Shown one piece after another: positions 484 to 20,950 of a DNA stretch of 49,569 nt (the first letter of the stretch is position 1; each line of letters starts with the position of its first letter). The DNA comes from Bacillota bacterium. GTDB taxonomy: Bacteria; Bacillota_I; Bacilli_A; RFN20; CAG-826. The position numbers and the translations under genes are program-made. The notes beneath the pieces are model-generated. The model saw only the letters and a program-made list of their open reading frames with translations, had not been told where the DNA came from and ran no database searches. The stretch covers positions 1 to 49,569 of the forward strand of contig JAURFC010000005.1 of NCBI GenBank assembly GCA_030834445.1, read 5' to 3'.

Positions 484-1746
484 TTAATATCGTTGATAAC
501 GAACATTGTTCATTGTGTTAAGATACGGTTCATAGCCATCTGTGTACGTGACTACCAACTGTTGATTGATGATTTCCACCCAAGCAATATCGAGCTCTTC
601 ACCCTGTTCAATAAAGTATTCTCGTAAGGCATAGGCGTTAGATTGATCCATGGTCATCATCGCCGTGGATAATGCATCTAACGATGCTGCATCCATGGTC
701 TTAGAAACGAGATTAATTTCTACCGCGTACGTGCTAGGATACCCCGTAGTAGGATCGATAATGTGATGGCGTAAGATCCGTTGATTACCCGCTTTAATGC
801 GTATACCGGTGTAAGCACCTGATGTGGATAACGCATGGCGACCGGGAATTGCAAGTTCATAAGCAAAATCAATACCATCTAATGGAGACGTCACTTTCCA
901 CGTATAGGGACGATTGCCATAACGAGGACCAATCGTGGTAATTGAACTCGTGCCATTGGAAATAAACCCACGCGTGTAGTTGGCTTCAGACAACATAGTC
1001 GATAACACATCATTAGCAAACCCTTTAGCAATGGCCCCTAAACTAATCAAGAGGTCACCTTTTTCTGCGTTATTAAACGCATGAAAGCGTACGCGATATA
1101 TACCGTCATTAGCCTCGAGTTCCAAGGTAGAAAGGATGTCCGTTTCAGTACGAGGCACGAATGATAAACGTCGCATCAAGTCATCCTTGACAACCGGATT
1201 GAATAACGGATCCATATCCGTGTAAGTAAGAGGGTATAACGGATCGCTTAAGCGTGCATCCCAAAAATCAGAAACCGAACCTAAAAACATATTAAATTGC
1301 CCTTGAGTGGTCACCGTTAACGCTTGGGCGAGGGAAAGTAAACGATAAAAATCTTCATCAATGGTTAACCACGATGTTTCTCCATAATGATCATTCAACA
1401 TTTTTAAATTGACGATGGGATTGCCTTGAACGTCCACAAAGGTATGACGACGGTCGGCGTACGAATGAAGGCGTGGGACTTCCGATGTAAGCACTTCACG
1501 AATGGCTTGTTTTTCTTCTTCTGGGGCATTGGCTTCATACGCTGTAAAAAAAACGGTATAAAAAGGGGAAAGACGAACCTCCGCATCGGTTTGAACGCGA
1601 ATCGTTGACCCTAATATTGAATAACCTAAATCCACCGTATTCGTCGGTTGTGCCCAAAACACGGAGGACACAATGAGAGCAGAAAGCACTAATGAACTTC
1701 CTAACACGGCCCATTCCTTTCGAGAAAACCATGACTTCACCCTCAT
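484..1746 (-). CDS. apbE: FAD:protein FMN transferase, membrane-anchored (ApbE family)
   Basis: ApbE moves FMN from FAD onto Thr/Ser of target proteins outside the membrane. The 420-residue protein has an N-terminal membrane segment (about residues 10-32) and then the ApbE fold: the early SYADRRHTFVD region, LGAIAKGFANDV near the middle and HHIIDPTTGYPS plus DALSTAMM in the last quarter, which are the FAD and metal-binding signatures of the family. Start chosen at ATG 1746: it overlaps the stop of the upstream gene as ATGA and has GGAG six bases before it; a TTG twelve bases upstream is less likely. It sits between a Gx-family membrane protein and a lipoprotein, which suggests that the lipoprotein is its flavinylation target. 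Confidence 0.9.
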   Translation of the reverse strand: MRVKSWFSRKEWAVLGSSLVLSALIVSSVFWAQPTNTVDLGYSILGSTIRVQTDAEVRLSPFYTVFFTAYEANAPEEEKQAIREVLTSEVPRLHSYADRRHTFVDVQGNPIVNLKMLNDHYGETSWLTIDEDFYRLLSLAQALTVTTQGQFNMFLGSVSDFWDARLSDPLYPLTYTDMDPLFNPVVKDDLMRRLSFVPRTETDILSTLELEANDGIYRVRFHAFNNAEKGDLLISLGAIAKGFANDVLSTMLSEANYTRGFISNGTSSITTIGPRYGNRPYTWKVTSPLDGIDFAYELAIPGRHALSTSGAYTGIRIKAGNQRILRHHIIDPTTGYPSTYAVEINLVSKTMDAASLDALSTAMMTMDQSNAYALREYFIEQGEELDIAWVEIINQQLVVTYTDGYEPYLNTMNNVRYQRY

Positions 1747-2252
1747 GAAACACTCCAATCCAGCATCCGCAAAATCACTTGTTCACTTAGCCAGGCAATG
1801 ACAAGACCCGCGATGGAACCTGTGACCATTAAAATCGGTAAATAATTAATCATGTACGGGGTTTGATAAAGCTGGCTCACCATAAGTATTTGTCCCACCC
1901 CGTGTCCTACAGCACCGACCAGGGATAAGCCATAGATGGATAATTGTTTTCCTTGTAACAGCACGATGACAAGTAAGCTGGCCACGAGCCATCCACTCAA
2001 TCCAATGAAAAAGTTAAAACCAAACCCGGTAAATAAACTGGTCATAACGACCCGTAAAAAACCTAAACCGATATATTCTTTAACGCCAAAGTAATAAAGA
2101 ACAATCAACCCAATCGTATTGGCAAGCCCTAATTTGACACCCGGGGCGATGAAGGCGGTCGGTAAAAAGACGGCTTCCGCGTAGTTAAGCAAGACCCCTA
2201 AGGCCAAAAACATCGCAAGACGCGTCATTTTTAAGGTCGATTCATTTCTCAT
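1743..2252 (-). CDS. Gx transporter family membrane protein (HEPPP_synt_1-like)
   Basis: A 169-residue, very hydrophobic protein with five or six predicted membrane segments and features of the family once called heptaprenyl diphosphate synthase component I (AFIAPGVKLGLANTIGLIVL; LSLVGAVGHGVGQI). These proteins resemble ECF S components and are repeatedly found beside NusG-domain-II proteins, ApbE and flavinylated lipoproteins in Gram-positive extracellular electron-transfer loci. Here the same order is seen: it overlaps NusG-II upstream and apbE downstream by ATGA junctions, so the three are translationally coupled. Role in quinone or flavin handling is inference. Confidence 0.8.
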   Translation of the reverse strand: MRNESTLKMTRLAMFLALGVLLNYAEAVFLPTAFIAPGVKLGLANTIGLIVLYYFGVKEYIGLGFLRVVMTSLFTGFGFNFFIGLSGWLVASLLVIVLLQGKQLSIYGLSLVGAVGHGVGQILMVSQLYQTPYMINYLPILMVTGSIAGLVIAWLSEQVILRMLDWSVS

Positions 2253-5211: not shown

Positions 5212-6669
5212 ATGAAAAGGACGTTGTTTTTATGGAGTTATCAGCTTCATCCGGATTATTTAAAAACGTTTCAATTTAATCCTGACGAAGATTGTTTGGT
5301 CTACGTCAATTCAACTGATCAATGGACATACTATCACTTTCATAAACAACGCATTGTTTACCATCTTTCTGCCTACCGTCATCATTTTGAAACTGCAAAA
5401 CAAAACGGGTGGAACGTTACATGGATTGACGCCACAACTCTCCCTGAAGCCTTACAAGGTCTAGACGCACTTTATGGTTTTGAACCGACGAATTTTTATG
5501 AAAAGGCGTGGTTAGATAAAATTTCTATAAACTTATTACCCGACCCTACTTTTTTTATTCCTGCTTCGGAATGGCCAACGTTATTACCTAAGCAAAAAAA
5601 TTGGAAACTCGATCCGTTATACCGTCAATTTCGTCAACGATTTAACATTCTGATGGAAAAAGGGGAGCCTTTAGGAGGACACTATTCCTTTGATAGTGAA
5701 AATCGTTCAGGGTATAAAGGGGATTACCTTGTCCCCCGATTAACCTTTACCCCCGATGCAATAACAACGCATTGGTCGCAATGGGTTTTAAGTCATTTTC
5801 CCGACCATCCCGGCTCGCTTGATGCTTTTGATTATCCGGTGACGCGGGATGATGCGCTTACCATGCTAGACCATTTTGTGACGTATCGCCTTGCTACCTT
5901 TGGTTTAGTCCAAGACGCGATGCAACAACATGATCCGTGGATGTCACATTCCTTATTGTCTGCTGCGATCAATTTAGGATTATTAAATCCCAGAGAAGTT
6001 GTTCTTCAGGCCGAAACAGCGTTCCATAAAGGGGTTGCTCCATTATCTGCTGTGGAAGGTTTTATTCGCCAAATCTTAGGATGGCGAGAATATGTACGCG
6101 GCGTCTACCTTCAAAAAGGACCAAGTTATCTTCACCTTAATTATTTTCAACATGAACGACCTCTACCGGACTTTTTCTATGACGGTAAAACCAACATGAA
6201 CTGTTTATCCTCGACCCTTCACGAAACGATCCATCATGGATATAACCATCATATTCAGCGATTAATGGTGTTGAGTAATTATGCAAATCTTGCGGAGATA
6301 TCCCCTCAGGATATCAATCGCTGGTTCAATGAAATGTATATTGATTCCTTTGAGTGGATTGTTGCCGCCAATGTCATTGGTATGGGTTTATTTGCCGATG
6401 GGGGGATGATGTCCACTAAACCTTATATTGCCTCCGGGGCATATCTTCACAAGATGTCCAATTACTGTGATCATTGTGACTATCAAGTCACGTTGAAAAC
6501 AGGGGAAAAAGCATGTCCATTCAATAGCCTCTATTGGCGATTTATTCACGAGAAGAAAGCAACTCTCCAACGGAATCCCCGCATGTCAATGATGGTCAAG
6601 GTTTGGGAAAAGATGGATGACACGTTAAAAAAAGAATTATTAGAAACGGCCCTTCACCATGTCAATTAA
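5212..6669 (+). CDS. FeS-containing bacterial cryptochrome/(6-4) photolyase
   Basis: A 485-residue member of the FeS-BCP/PhrB group (deoxyribodipyrimidine photolyase-related family), flavoenzymes that repair UV (6-4) photoproducts with blue light. The four cluster ligands are C331, C419, C422 and C435; their spacing of 88, 3 and 13 is that of PhrB of Agrobacterium. The catalytic His pair of PhrB is H346-H347 (YNHHIQRLMV). The N-terminal part is the Rossmann-like antenna domain; in PhrB the antenna is 6,7-dimethyl-8-ribityllumazine, a riboflavin precursor. It overlaps the next photolyase gene by 11 bases and diverges from ribD/ribA. Confidence 0.93.
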   Translation: MKRTLFLWSYQLHPDYLKTFQFNPDEDCLVYVNSTDQWTYYHFHKQRIVYHLSAYRHHFETAKQNGWNVTWIDATTLPEALQGLDALYGFEPTNFYEKAWLDKISINLLPDPTFFIPASEWPTLLPKQKNWKLDPLYRQFRQRFNILMEKGEPLGGHYSFDSENRSGYKGDYLVPRLTFTPDAITTHWSQWVLSHFPDHPGSLDAFDYPVTRDDALTMLDHFVTYRLATFGLVQDAMQQHDPWMSHSLLSAAINLGLLNPREVVLQAETAFHKGVAPLSAVEGFIRQILGWREYVRGVYLQKGPSYLHLNYFQHERPLPDFFYDGKTNMNCLSSTLHETIHHGYNHHIQRLMVLSNYANLAEISPQDINRWFNEMYIDSFEWIVAANVIGMGLFADGGMMSTKPYIASGAYLHKMSNYCDHCDYQVTLKTGEKACPFNSLYWRFIHEKKATLQRNPRMSMMVKVWEKMDDTLKKELLETALHHVN

Positions 6670-8047
6670 GGTCAATATGGTTTATTTTCAAAACGATTTA
6701 CGGGTGCATGACCATCCTGGTTTATGGTCGGCATCACAAAGTTCTTTACCTATTATTGGACTTTTTATACGTCGTGATGTCGACAGCCTTTCCCCCTTTG
6801 GTTTCACAAAAAAGAGTAAAATGCGGGGGCAATTTTTACATCGCGCGTTAGCCGTCTTAAAAAAGTCGCTTCAAGAAAAAAACATACCGCTTCTTGTGTT
6901 TGATGATATTCACTCCCCAACGTTACAAACCTTCATAAACTCGGTTCATGTCGAGACATGGTTTACTTCACTTGAACCTGGTTCCGAAGAAAAACAAAAA
7001 GAAAATTCACTGCTTGAACTGTTTAAACCCTCTCACCTAAAACGGTATGCGAGTAAATCCTTACTTCATCCAAGTGATTACCCGTTTTTGATGAAAGATC
7101 TTCCCTCTCGCTTTACCGATGCCCGCATGCGCATTGAAAAAAATATTCAGGTTCGTCCGCTAATTCCATCCTTATCTCCTCACAAATCTTCTGCATCAAT
7201 TGCCTTTGAAGAAGATGGAATTCCTTCCTCCGAACCCGTATGGTTTGATTCCGGAGAAGAGGCAGGATTAAAACATCTTCATGATTATTTTTTCACCGAT
7301 CAACATGTACTTACGTATAAATTGACTCGCAACAACATGCTTAAATTTGAGGATTCCAGCAAACTTTCACCCTATCTTGCCTTAGGATGTCTTTCTCCAC
7401 GAATGATTTATTGGGAACTGAAAAAGGTCGAAAAAACGATTGAAAAAAATCAATCAACGTACTGGCTTTGGTTTGAACTGCTTTGGCGTGATTATTTTTA
7501 TTTTTTACATTTAAATCACGGTAATGCATTCTTCTTTTTACGGGGTACAAAGAACAAACCCTATTCCGGTCATGCGCATCATCCGTATGAACAAGCCATT
7601 TTGAAAGCGAAAACAGGGTATCCAATCGTCGATGCCAACCTTCAAGAACTTTATCAAACGGGATGGATGTCGAATCGTGGGCGACAAAATGTGGCGAGTT
7701 TTATCGTGCACGGTCTTCACCTCGATTGGCGATGGGGTGCCGCGCTTTATGAACATTTCCTACTTGATTTTGATGTGAGTAGTAACTATGGAAACTGGCA
7801 ATATTTAGCAGGTGTAGGCAATGATCCTCGGGAAGATCGCGTTTTTAATGTGAGCTTACAATTAAAAAAATACGATGCCAAAGGTGATTATATTCGTCAT
7901 TGGATTCCTGCGTTAAAAAACGTTCCAACACCTGAACTATATCAACCTTGGACGATGAATGATCTTCAACAAAACTTAGCCCAATGCATCATCGGAAAAG
8001 ATTATCCTTTTCCGATCATCGATGACGCACGATTTCAACTTCGTTAA
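6659..8047 (+). CDS. CRY-DASH type cryptochrome/photolyase
   Basis: 462 residues with the classical photolyase fold: N-terminal VYFQNDLRVHDHPGL antenna domain, and the C-terminal FAD domain with LALGCLSPRMIYWEL, LWRDYFYFL, TGYPIVDANLQELYQTGWMSNRGRQNVASF and the DASH hallmark SNYGNWQYLAGVGNDPRED followed by RVFN. DASH enzymes repair cyclobutane dimers, mainly in single-stranded DNA, and use FAD with a methenyl-tetrahydrofolate antenna. Second gene of a two-gene photolyase operon; its stop overlaps the stop of the opposite-strand PfpI gene by four bases. Confidence 0.92.
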   Translation: MSIKVNMVYFQNDLRVHDHPGLWSASQSSLPIIGLFIRRDVDSLSPFGFTKKSKMRGQFLHRALAVLKKSLQEKNIPLLVFDDIHSPTLQTFINSVHVETWFTSLEPGSEEKQKENSLLELFKPSHLKRYASKSLLHPSDYPFLMKDLPSRFTDARMRIEKNIQVRPLIPSLSPHKSSASIAFEEDGIPSSEPVWFDSGEEAGLKHLHDYFFTDQHVLTYKLTRNNMLKFEDSSKLSPYLALGCLSPRMIYWELKKVEKTIEKNQSTYWLWFELLWRDYFYFLHLNHGNAFFFLRGTKNKPYSGHAHHPYEQAILKAKTGYPIVDANLQELYQTGWMSNRGRQNVASFIVHGLHLDWRWGAALYEHFLLDFDVSSNYGNWQYLAGVGNDPREDRVFNVSLQLKKYDAKGDYIRHWIPALKNVPTPELYQPWTMNDLQQNLAQCIIGKDYPFPIIDDARFQLR

Positions 8048-20051: not shown

Positions 20052-20083
20052 AAAAAGAACATCCTCTCGGATGTTCTTTTTGT
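20052..20083. terminator. Bidirectional terminator between the kinase and rhodopsin genes
   Basis: Stem AAAGAACATCC/GGATGTTCTTT with a TCTC loop (20054-20079) and T runs on both strands. Confidence 0.9.
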
Positions 20084-20099
20084 TTGGAATCGGATGGGT

Positions 20100-20906
20100 T
20101 TAGGCTGCTTCTTGGAAGCCTTCTTCTTGTGAGAGGAAGGTTGAAACCGTGTTGAGCATAATCCCGTAGATGATTTTGGAGGTGACGTCAGCAATCGTGT
20201 ATAACACTTGTTGCGAAACGACAACCACCGAATCGATACCTGCACCGAATAAAGCTGGCATGAGGTAGGCGATTGGATAAATCGTCCAGGTGATGTAGAA
20301 CCATGGTTTGATAAATTTGAAGATACCAACCATTTTGCTGCCTTTCATGTTCTTCGCACCTTCGTCGATAACTTTCGTCATCGTGATAAGAATGAAGACA
20401 TAGAAGACGGTTGAAATACCACCCCAGACAAGCCATAAGACTAAGTCGGATCCTGCAGTACGTCCTGGTTCGTAGAATTGACCCACGTAACCGGTAACGA
20501 TCATGAGCATCCCATAGAGGGTGAAATCACGCCAATACTTACGGAAGGCTGCTCCACTAATTGCCGCAACGAATAAGATTTGCGTTAATAAGTTGGGGAC
20601 GTCAATGAGCCAGTTAAGATAACGGAAACCGTTGGAGAACGTACCAATCGATTCATAGCCCGTGACGACACCGCCGGTAAGAACGGGTGTGTAGGAGTCA
20701 ACCCAGCTTTGTTGTTGGAAAAATAGCAACAGTAAAGCAGAGATCGACACAACGACAGAGAGAACATTCGACATGCGATACTTCGGTAAGTTTTGACGAA
20801 TCGTCAACCAGAAGTAAAGCAACCCAGCAGCCATCACGGCATAACCGAGCGTCAGGACGTGGGAGACGAGTTCGAACTCCCAAACTTGTAAGGTAATATC
20901 TGACAT
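20100..20906 (-). CDS. Light-driven sodium pump rhodopsin (NDQ type)
   Basis: 268 residues, seven membrane helices. Helix C reads RYLNWLIDVPNLLTQ: R95, then N98, D102 and Q109 at the places of bacteriorhodopsin D85, T89 and D96. This N-D-Q triplet is the mark of sodium-pumping rhodopsins such as KR2 (N112, D116, Q123). Helix F has WTIYP (W207, Y210, P211) and helix G has ADVTSK with D240 and the retinal Schiff-base lysine K244, spaced as D251/K255 in KR2. Leu106 occupies the proteorhodopsin-105 spectral position, which predicts green absorption. AAGGAGG with a good spacing precedes the ATG. Single-gene unit with a terminator behind it and a cre-like site in front. No retinal-synthesis gene (blh, crt) is in the window. 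Confidence 0.95.
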   Translation of the reverse strand: MSDITLQVWEFELVSHVLTLGYAVMAAGLLYFWLTIRQNLPKYRMSNVLSVVVSISALLLLFFQQQSWVDSYTPVLTGGVVTGYESIGTFSNGFRYLNWLIDVPNLLTQILFVAAISGAAFRKYWRDFTLYGMLMIVTGYVGQFYEPGRTAGSDLVLWLVWGGISTVFYVFILITMTKVIDEGAKNMKGSKMVGIFKFIKPWFYITWTIYPIAYLMPALFGAGIDSVVVVSQQVLYTIADVTSKIIYGIMLNTVSTFLSQEEGFQEAA

Positions 20907-20950
20907 AAAATCCTCCTTATATTACTTACTGCAATTAATTTAAACGAAAA

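Follow-up and report, generated by a model that had tools for sequence, protein, structure and literature searches.

Light-driven sodium pumps of the NDQ family of microbial rhodopsins (NaR) are already known, the closest described systems being KR2 and IaNaR of Bacteroidota, which belong to subgroup 1, and ErNaR, a member of subgroup 2. In its accessible part, PMC11006869 uses the residue set RNDQDK for NDQ rhodopsins and defines subgroup 1 by L or I at KR2 position 74. KR2 and ErNaR also possess an extracellular triad, E11-E160-R243. According to the available portion of PMC7195465, R243 and G263 are among the key functional residues, and replacement of R243 affects stability, Na+ pumping not being lost. 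Here we describe a gene of this family at positions 20100-20906 of a 49,569-nucleotide stretch of a Bacillota genome (contig JAURFC010000005.1, positions 1 to 49,569), the whole of which is hereafter called the window. Based on the sequence, the predicted fold, the phylogenetic tree, the selection acting on the gene and the presence of partner genes, we propose, with a probability of about 0.85, that its product is a pump of the KR2 type (subgroup 1) which uses light to move Na+ outward and feeds a sodium cycle. The ion pumped, the direction of transport, the coupling to ATP and the scavenging of retinal are the parts of this proposal that we infer. The gene and its flanking signals are as follows:

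20100-20906, minus strand: NDQ (sodium-pump type) microbial rhodopsin gene, 268 aa, ATG start
20912-20918, minus strand: Shine-Dalgarno-like AAGGAGG, 5 bases upstream of the rhodopsin ATG
20052-20081, no strand assigned: terminator-like stem-loop, 13 pairs followed by a T-run, a pattern match

The stem-loop separates the rhodopsin gene from a convergent guanylate-kinase-like gene located just downstream; the terminator-like pattern was found at 3 sites versus 1.3 expected. The open reading frame (ORF) matches the Pfam family Bac_rhodopsin (PF01036, E=4e-35) and is thus a type-1 microbial rhodopsin, and no model was matched in the NCBIfam search. A sequence search of the Protein Data Bank (PDB) returned 48 matches, of which the best 18 are all sodium-pump entries: IaNaR (8jh0, E=3e-64), KR2 and its mutants (KR2 at approximately 5e-60) and ErNaR-type proteins (1.5e-51; entry 8qle is presumably ErNaR). 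Outside this group, chloride pumps (2e-41) have scores lower than those of KR2 and IaNaR by about 60-75 bits, and xanthorhodopsin (3ddl, 4e-24) by more than 110 bits. The AlphaFold model (mean pLDDT 93, pTM 0.89) has a seven-helix KR2-like fold, and the 50 PDB fold matches listed are all KR2, KR2 mutants (the K+-pumping ones included), IaNaR or ErNaR, with TM values of 0.84-0.88. That 20100-20906 encodes a genuine NDQ rhodopsin is confirmed, far beyond chance. Membership of the chloride- or proton-pump class was also considered and was ruled out on the motif, the scores and the tree.

Alignment with KR2 (46-48% identity) places N98, D102 and Q109 at N112, D116 and Q123, i.e. the NDQ motif of helix C is present, and R95, D240 and K244 (the retinal lysine) at R109, D251 and K255, which completes the RNDQDK set; S56, L60 and S243 correspond to S70, L74 and S254. 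The initial annotation, made from the DNA letters alone, had named N98, D102, Q109 and D240/K244 as the KR2-type set, and this residue list proved exact. The window rhodopsin has N-D-Q, R109, S70, L74, D251, S254, K255 and the predicted fold in common with KR2 and IaNaR. Its host differs from theirs, being a cell with a genome of about 1 Mb that apparently lacks a wall and gave no Blh match. As L60 occupies KR2 position 74, the protein is assigned to NaR subgroup 1. Subgroup 2 was ruled out by the same residue, which is L and not E, although the NDQ motif is common to the window protein and ErNaR.

The window rhodopsin differs from KR2 at R243 (Q232), D102 (G), H180 (F) and G263 (N252). The extracellular triad is not complete: E160 corresponds to E146, R243 is replaced by Q232, and E11 lies outside the KR2 stretch compared. 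In the clade formed with its nearest relatives, KR2 R243 is Q in 18 of 18 rows (the window, L002-L011, L048 and L091-L096, comprising 14 different sequences; L labels denote loci and G labels genomes of this analysis). In KR2 this position is R, as it is in all 35 other loci that gave data, a count which leaves out L032 (no data, with only 12 aa in frame in the residue table) and L090, which is xenorhodopsin-like and no NaR; L047 is a fragment in this table. At KR2 D102, the interprotomer Na+ site, the window rhodopsin has G and the members of the clade have G, S, R, E, D or Q; this residue is likewise not conserved in subgroup 2, as stated in the accessible part of PMC11006869. KR2 position 263 is N, Q or T in the clade and T, A, S or G in other NDQ proteins. 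Since Na+ pumping is not lost upon R243 replacement and the triad is not required for it (PMC7195465, available portion), we do not read the change to Q as a loss of function, nor do we treat the triad as defining a NaR.

A scan of genome contigs for relatives yielded 46 loci. The nearest ones, L002-L009, come from metagenome-assembled genomes (MAGs) labelled Bacilli, Tenericutes, Candidatus Izimaplasma, Bacillota and Acholeplasmataceae; L002 is 99.6% identical to the window rhodopsin and the other mollicute-like loci (L003-L009) are 59-64% identical. They are followed by a Spirochaeta MAG (L010, 61%) and a Planctomycetota MAG (L011, 53%), and Bacteroidota, Balneolota and other relatives reach at most 50% identity. 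The first maximum-likelihood (ML) tree comprised 55 rows with outgroups. Left out of it were L032 and L047, L035, which is truncated by the end of its contig, and two duplicate rows, L048 (same as L002) and L092 (same as L009). In this tree 14 mollicute-like rows grouped together (89/94) and formed, with L010 and L011, a 16-row clade (100/99), whose sister consisted of KR2, IaNaR, Robiginitalea, Balneolaceae and an Anaerolineae MAG row (98/98). The chloride-pump row stood on a long branch among Spirosoma-type proteins, and one of the long-branch warnings named the point at which the 16 rows of the window's clade join the tree. Because of these warnings the tree was rebuilt without the long rows; in addition to the rows omitted before, L090, L025, L033, ClR, IaNaR, L145 and L146 were removed. 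In the resulting 48-row tree the warning for the window's clade was gone, the 14 mollicute-like rows received 99/97, the 16-row clade 100/99 and its sister relationship to the KR2 clade 91/85 (not starred). The 16-row clade is firm, and the sister group given here is likely but less certain. The NaR identity put forward in the initial annotation, for which a tree had been suggested as a check, is thus borne out by a placement among NaRs and not elsewhere.

Of 196 genomes sampled from the order, 2 have a type-1 rhodopsin over the cut-off, and these two belong to the genus of the window; of 395 sampled from the class, 8 have one, seven of the rhodopsins being NDQ and one xenorhodopsin-like; both samples were drawn from larger groups, and partial matches under the cut-off (5 in the order search, 6 in the class search) were not counted. 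None of the 14 control genomes had one. The earlier statement that Bacillota rhodopsins are mainly proton pumps does not describe this class sample. L090, from another genome of the class, is also a type-1 rhodopsin, but it shares only 20% identity with the window protein, has D-T-A in place of N-D-Q and finds its best PDB match in xenorhodopsin 7zmy. The NDQ motif also occurs in another small-genomed lineage, the Absconditabacteria (Candidate Phyla Radiation, CPR), as described in the accessible part of PMC8406219; that rhodopsin belongs to another phylum and is likened here by description, not by sequence. The patchy distribution, together with the spirochaete and planctomycete members of the clade, suggests horizontal spread. 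A viral origin was considered and rejected, as no relative was confirmed among viral contigs. A plasmid origin was rejected as well: the search of 72,556 plasmid records gave 3 matches, none above 28-29% identity.

Comparison of the rhodopsin gene between the window (20103-20906) and L002 (8001-8804), which comes from another genome of the same genus, gives 11 synonymous differences and 1 nonsynonymous difference, i.e. a dN/dS of 0.026. Its dS is 0.062 and that of ten neighbour genes is 0.153-0.392; high expression with codon bias, or a recent recombination, would explain the low value.

The genome containing the window has 1,012,368 bases in 36 contigs and is 93.2% complete. It was analysed together with its relatives as a set of 9 distinct mollicute-like genomes (G000, G184 and G197-G203), with G204-G206 as comparators and 14 controls; G196 was not counted separately from G184 because the hit coordinates are identical. 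The transpeptidase PF00905, the sole wall family searched, was found in 0/9 mollicute-like genomes, 3/3 comparators and 10/14 controls, therefore the cell is probably devoid of peptidoglycan. The wall-poor, gene-reduced host foreseen in the initial annotation agrees with these data. GlmS-like and phosphoglucosamine-mutase-like genes, recognised in the window by ORF reading, may serve other glycoconjugates.

Candidate sodium partners are present in these genomes. PF03116 (NqrB/RnfD) was found in all nine mollicute-like genomes, and the window's own genome has an Nqr-like operon (L131) with genes closest to NqrB/RnfD, NqrC, NqrD, NqrE and NqrF, all below curated cut-offs and with no NqrA beside them. 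Operons of the NqrB-C-D-E-F type without an adjoining NqrA (L131:3005-6943, L133:6243-10181 and L004:11318-15176) possibly represent a five-subunit variant. At L133:3-10181 (contig C14 of G184), V-type ATPase genes (by similarity) and the Nqr-type operon are about 0.5 kb apart, separated by one small acetyltransferase-like gene. The c-subunit of the own F-ATPase operon (L132, by similarity) has E32, E65, T66, T67 and Y70, which matches the two-carboxylate Na+ site of the Fusobacterium rotor (E32, E65, S66, T67 and Y70 in the accessible part of PMC3692424) except for T in place of S66. Six of the 8 other mollicute-like genomes have Q32, E65, T66, T67 and Y70, and Na+ coupling of these rotors is predicted from such residues.

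In the relatives, ion-pumping operons also occur close to the rhodopsin gene itself. An Nqr-type operon begins 2.5 kb (L004) and 3.2 kb (L003) downstream of it; the Pfam check covered 4 of the 5 genes in L004, and the L003 operon is cut in NqrB. V-type ATPase genes, Pfam-checked on L005 only, begin approximately 60-210 bases downstream in L005, L006 and L008, in convergent orientation, and one gene lies between them and the rhodopsin gene in L007. An RnfG-like gene (NCBIfam rnfG, 5e-12, below its cut-off; no Pfam match) is situated at the contig edge of L009, 0.6 kb from the rhodopsin gene, with one gene in between.

By analogy with KR2, K244 would bind retinal, and upon its isomerisation by light the Schiff-base proton would be taken by D102. 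Na+ would then pass through the Q109/S50 gate (Q123/S64 in KR2), be bound near N98, D102 and D240 and be released outward. The light-driven Na+ gradient which, as suggested in the initial annotation, this cell may build would add to that of the Nqr-type complex in a wall-less mollicute-like Bacilli cell of about 1 Mb, driving a Na+-type F-ATP synthase as well as Na+-coupled transport.

Blh (PF15461) was found in 0/9 mollicute-like genomes and is present in the planctomycete and in Robiginitalea; RPE65, likewise found in 0/9, was detected only in the spirochaete, adjoining its rhodopsin. In this Spirochaeta MAG (L010:6497-8977, contig GC 0.55) the neighbour of the RPE65-type carotenoid oxygenase is an NDQ rhodopsin of the Q232 clade. 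The lycopene cyclase PF18916 was found in 0/12 genomes and matched only 3/14 controls, and the CruA/CruP types, which we take to be other lycopene cyclases, were not searched for. The second lycopene-cyclase family searched, PF05834, gave no match in the own genome and near full-length matches only in the planctomycete and Robiginitalea; weak matches of about 35 residues in G184, G197 and G198, the last over the cut-off only when summed with in-frame neighbours, are read as putative generic flavoprotein matches. The holo-protein therefore needs retinal from outside or an unknown enzyme. Eight of the nine mollicute-like genomes have a gene of the phytoene/squalene-synthase family (PF00494). In the own genome this gene adjoins a crtI-family desaturase, which passes its cut-off; the synthase-family gene passes no NCBIfam cut-off, and its product would be C30 or C40.

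Heliorhodopsins occur in all nine mollicute-like genomes, two of them in the own genome. Their lysine motif, which we take to be the retinal site, is present in 14 of 14 ORFs read, corresponding to 13 different genes of 16 intact matches. The retinal lysine being kept in three retinal proteins of the own genome suggests that retinal reaches the cell, and as no known family of retinal-forming enzymes was detected, it is probably scavenged. Uptake from neighbouring organisms is the most economical reading, with an unknown enzyme as the other possibility. Heliorhodopsins in Firmicutes are covered by PMC8612252, in its accessible part.

The surroundings of the heliorhodopsin genes show recurrent features. 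A PF14249 tocopherol-cyclase-like gene, Pfam-tested in L135 and recognised by sequence similarity in L073-L075, adjoins a heliorhodopsin in L135:5861-7713 (contig C31 of the own genome), L073:7538-9438, L074:13644-15544 and L075:1899-3744. In L073-L075 a pair of crtI-family and synthase-family genes also adjoins them. Close by are genes of the DUF1295 and DUF2177 families, recognised by Pfam in L135 and by similarity in L073/L074. A carboxylesterase/hydrolase-like gene, Pfam-tested in L135 and otherwise recognised by eye, recurs near heliorhodopsins (L135:7749-8393, L138:1321-1917, L139:1748-2350), and a similar gene is found at L005:684-1292, several kb from the NaR gene. In G203 (L140, C56:26866-28329) heliorhodopsin copies stand side by side, one of them fragmented, with an in-frame TGA in one fragment. 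The PF14249 gene beside heliorhodopsin, which in three relatives is near synthase-family/crtI-family genes, offers a lead for a new retinal route. It is unlikely, but conceivable, that several wall-less mollicute-like lineages of about 1 Mb are sodium-cycle photoheterotrophs making retinal by such a new enzyme route. In the proposed cycle, NaR and Nqr/Rnf would move Na+ out and the Na+ ATP synthase would let it in.

The window contains other features related to this setting:

484-1758, minus strand: ApbE-like FMN transferase, a weak match well below the curated cut-off
5212-6669, plus strand: photolyase-related protein (PF04244, DPRP), a context of light exposure
6659-8047, plus strand: DASH-family cryptochrome/photolyase, a context of light exposure

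The putative ApbE-like gene is consistent with flavinylation of the Nqr-like operon, located on another contig. The own genome has at least three photolyase/cryptochrome genes, i.e. the DPRP and DASH genes (window 5212-8047) and a class II-like gene (L070:9730-11067), the last divergent from a crtI-family gene.

Several points weigh against a Na+ pump feeding a sodium cycle. Outward Na+ transport is predicted from the protein sequence, and the selectivity may differ because R243, D102 and G263 are replaced by Q, G and N, R243 and G263 being key residues and the KR2 mutant G263F pumping K+ (title of PDB entry 6rfc). G184 and G201 returned no F-type c-subunit, only the V-type proteolipid, and the two-carboxylate motif, listed in other species too (PMC3692424, accessible part), may not be exclusive to Na+ enzymes. 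The rhodopsin gene is near an ion-pumping operon in 3 of 4 lineages, with a rough p of 0.001 on assumed operon sizes, but the argument is post hoc, as p was computed after the pattern had been seen. In the window's own lineage no sodium gene is among the rhodopsin neighbours, which are a PDH operon, the guanylate-kinase-like gene and an ABC transporter. The own genome, 93% complete, also yielded no retinal-forming or lycopene-cyclase match.

Because the E-E-R cluster is without its arginine and the cytoplasmic entrance has N and not G, the natural cargo might be K+, H+ or mixed cations. The clade-wide Q in place of R243, a key residue together with G263 in the available portion of PMC7195465, and the N, Q or T at position 263, the site of the K+-pumping mutation, speak for such a change. 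However, position 263 also varies in other NDQ proteins, and N98, D102, Q109, S56, D240 and S243 are all retained; we regard an altered selectivity as quite improbable. A still smaller chance is given to a light sensor, or to a nearly silent apo-protein for which too little retinal can be obtained. The missing Blh and RPE65 matches would fit it, as would the two heliorhodopsins, which suggest sensory use of light, but the retinal lysine and the pump residues are retained under strong purifying selection, no transducer-like gene was recognised beside the rhodopsin gene in the window, and its neighbours in relatives include ion-pumping operons. The suspicion that the contig is a binning error, carrying a rhodopsin of another organism, arises from the draft, MAG-like state of the assembly (36 contigs) and from the rarity of rhodopsins in the order (2/196). 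It was rejected as hardly credible, given that in L002 the rhodopsin gene and 15 more genes around it are arranged as in the window and encode proteins 93-100% identical to those of the window, that the GC content of the region (0.415) fits the window, and that seven more mollicute-like MAGs (0.7-1.0 Mb) have members of the clade. The gene most probably encodes an outward Na+ pump.

Proteins of the window's clade may already be among the 351 NDQ sequences of PMC11006869. No report of a NaR in mollicutes or Bacillota was found among the matches listed from the open-licence PMC literature, preprints excluded. With respect to the searchable literature, four points are new: the group of hosts, the clade marked by Q232, the linkage of the gene to ion-pumping operons, and the pigment gap. 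The host setting of this NDQ rhodopsin is notable: mollicutes and their kin are known mostly as wall-less fermenters, and, to our knowledge, energy capture by rhodopsin lies outside the usual picture of these bacteria. The retinal-enzyme gap poses a concrete question, i.e. scavenging versus an unknown enzyme, and the clade-wide replacement of R243 amounts to a natural experiment, which bears on stability and on the release of Na+. A NaR with Nqr, V-ATPase or Rnf-like genes nearby in sister lineages and with a sodium-type ATP synthase site in its own genome would offer a compact model in which sodium bioenergetics driven by light can be tested.
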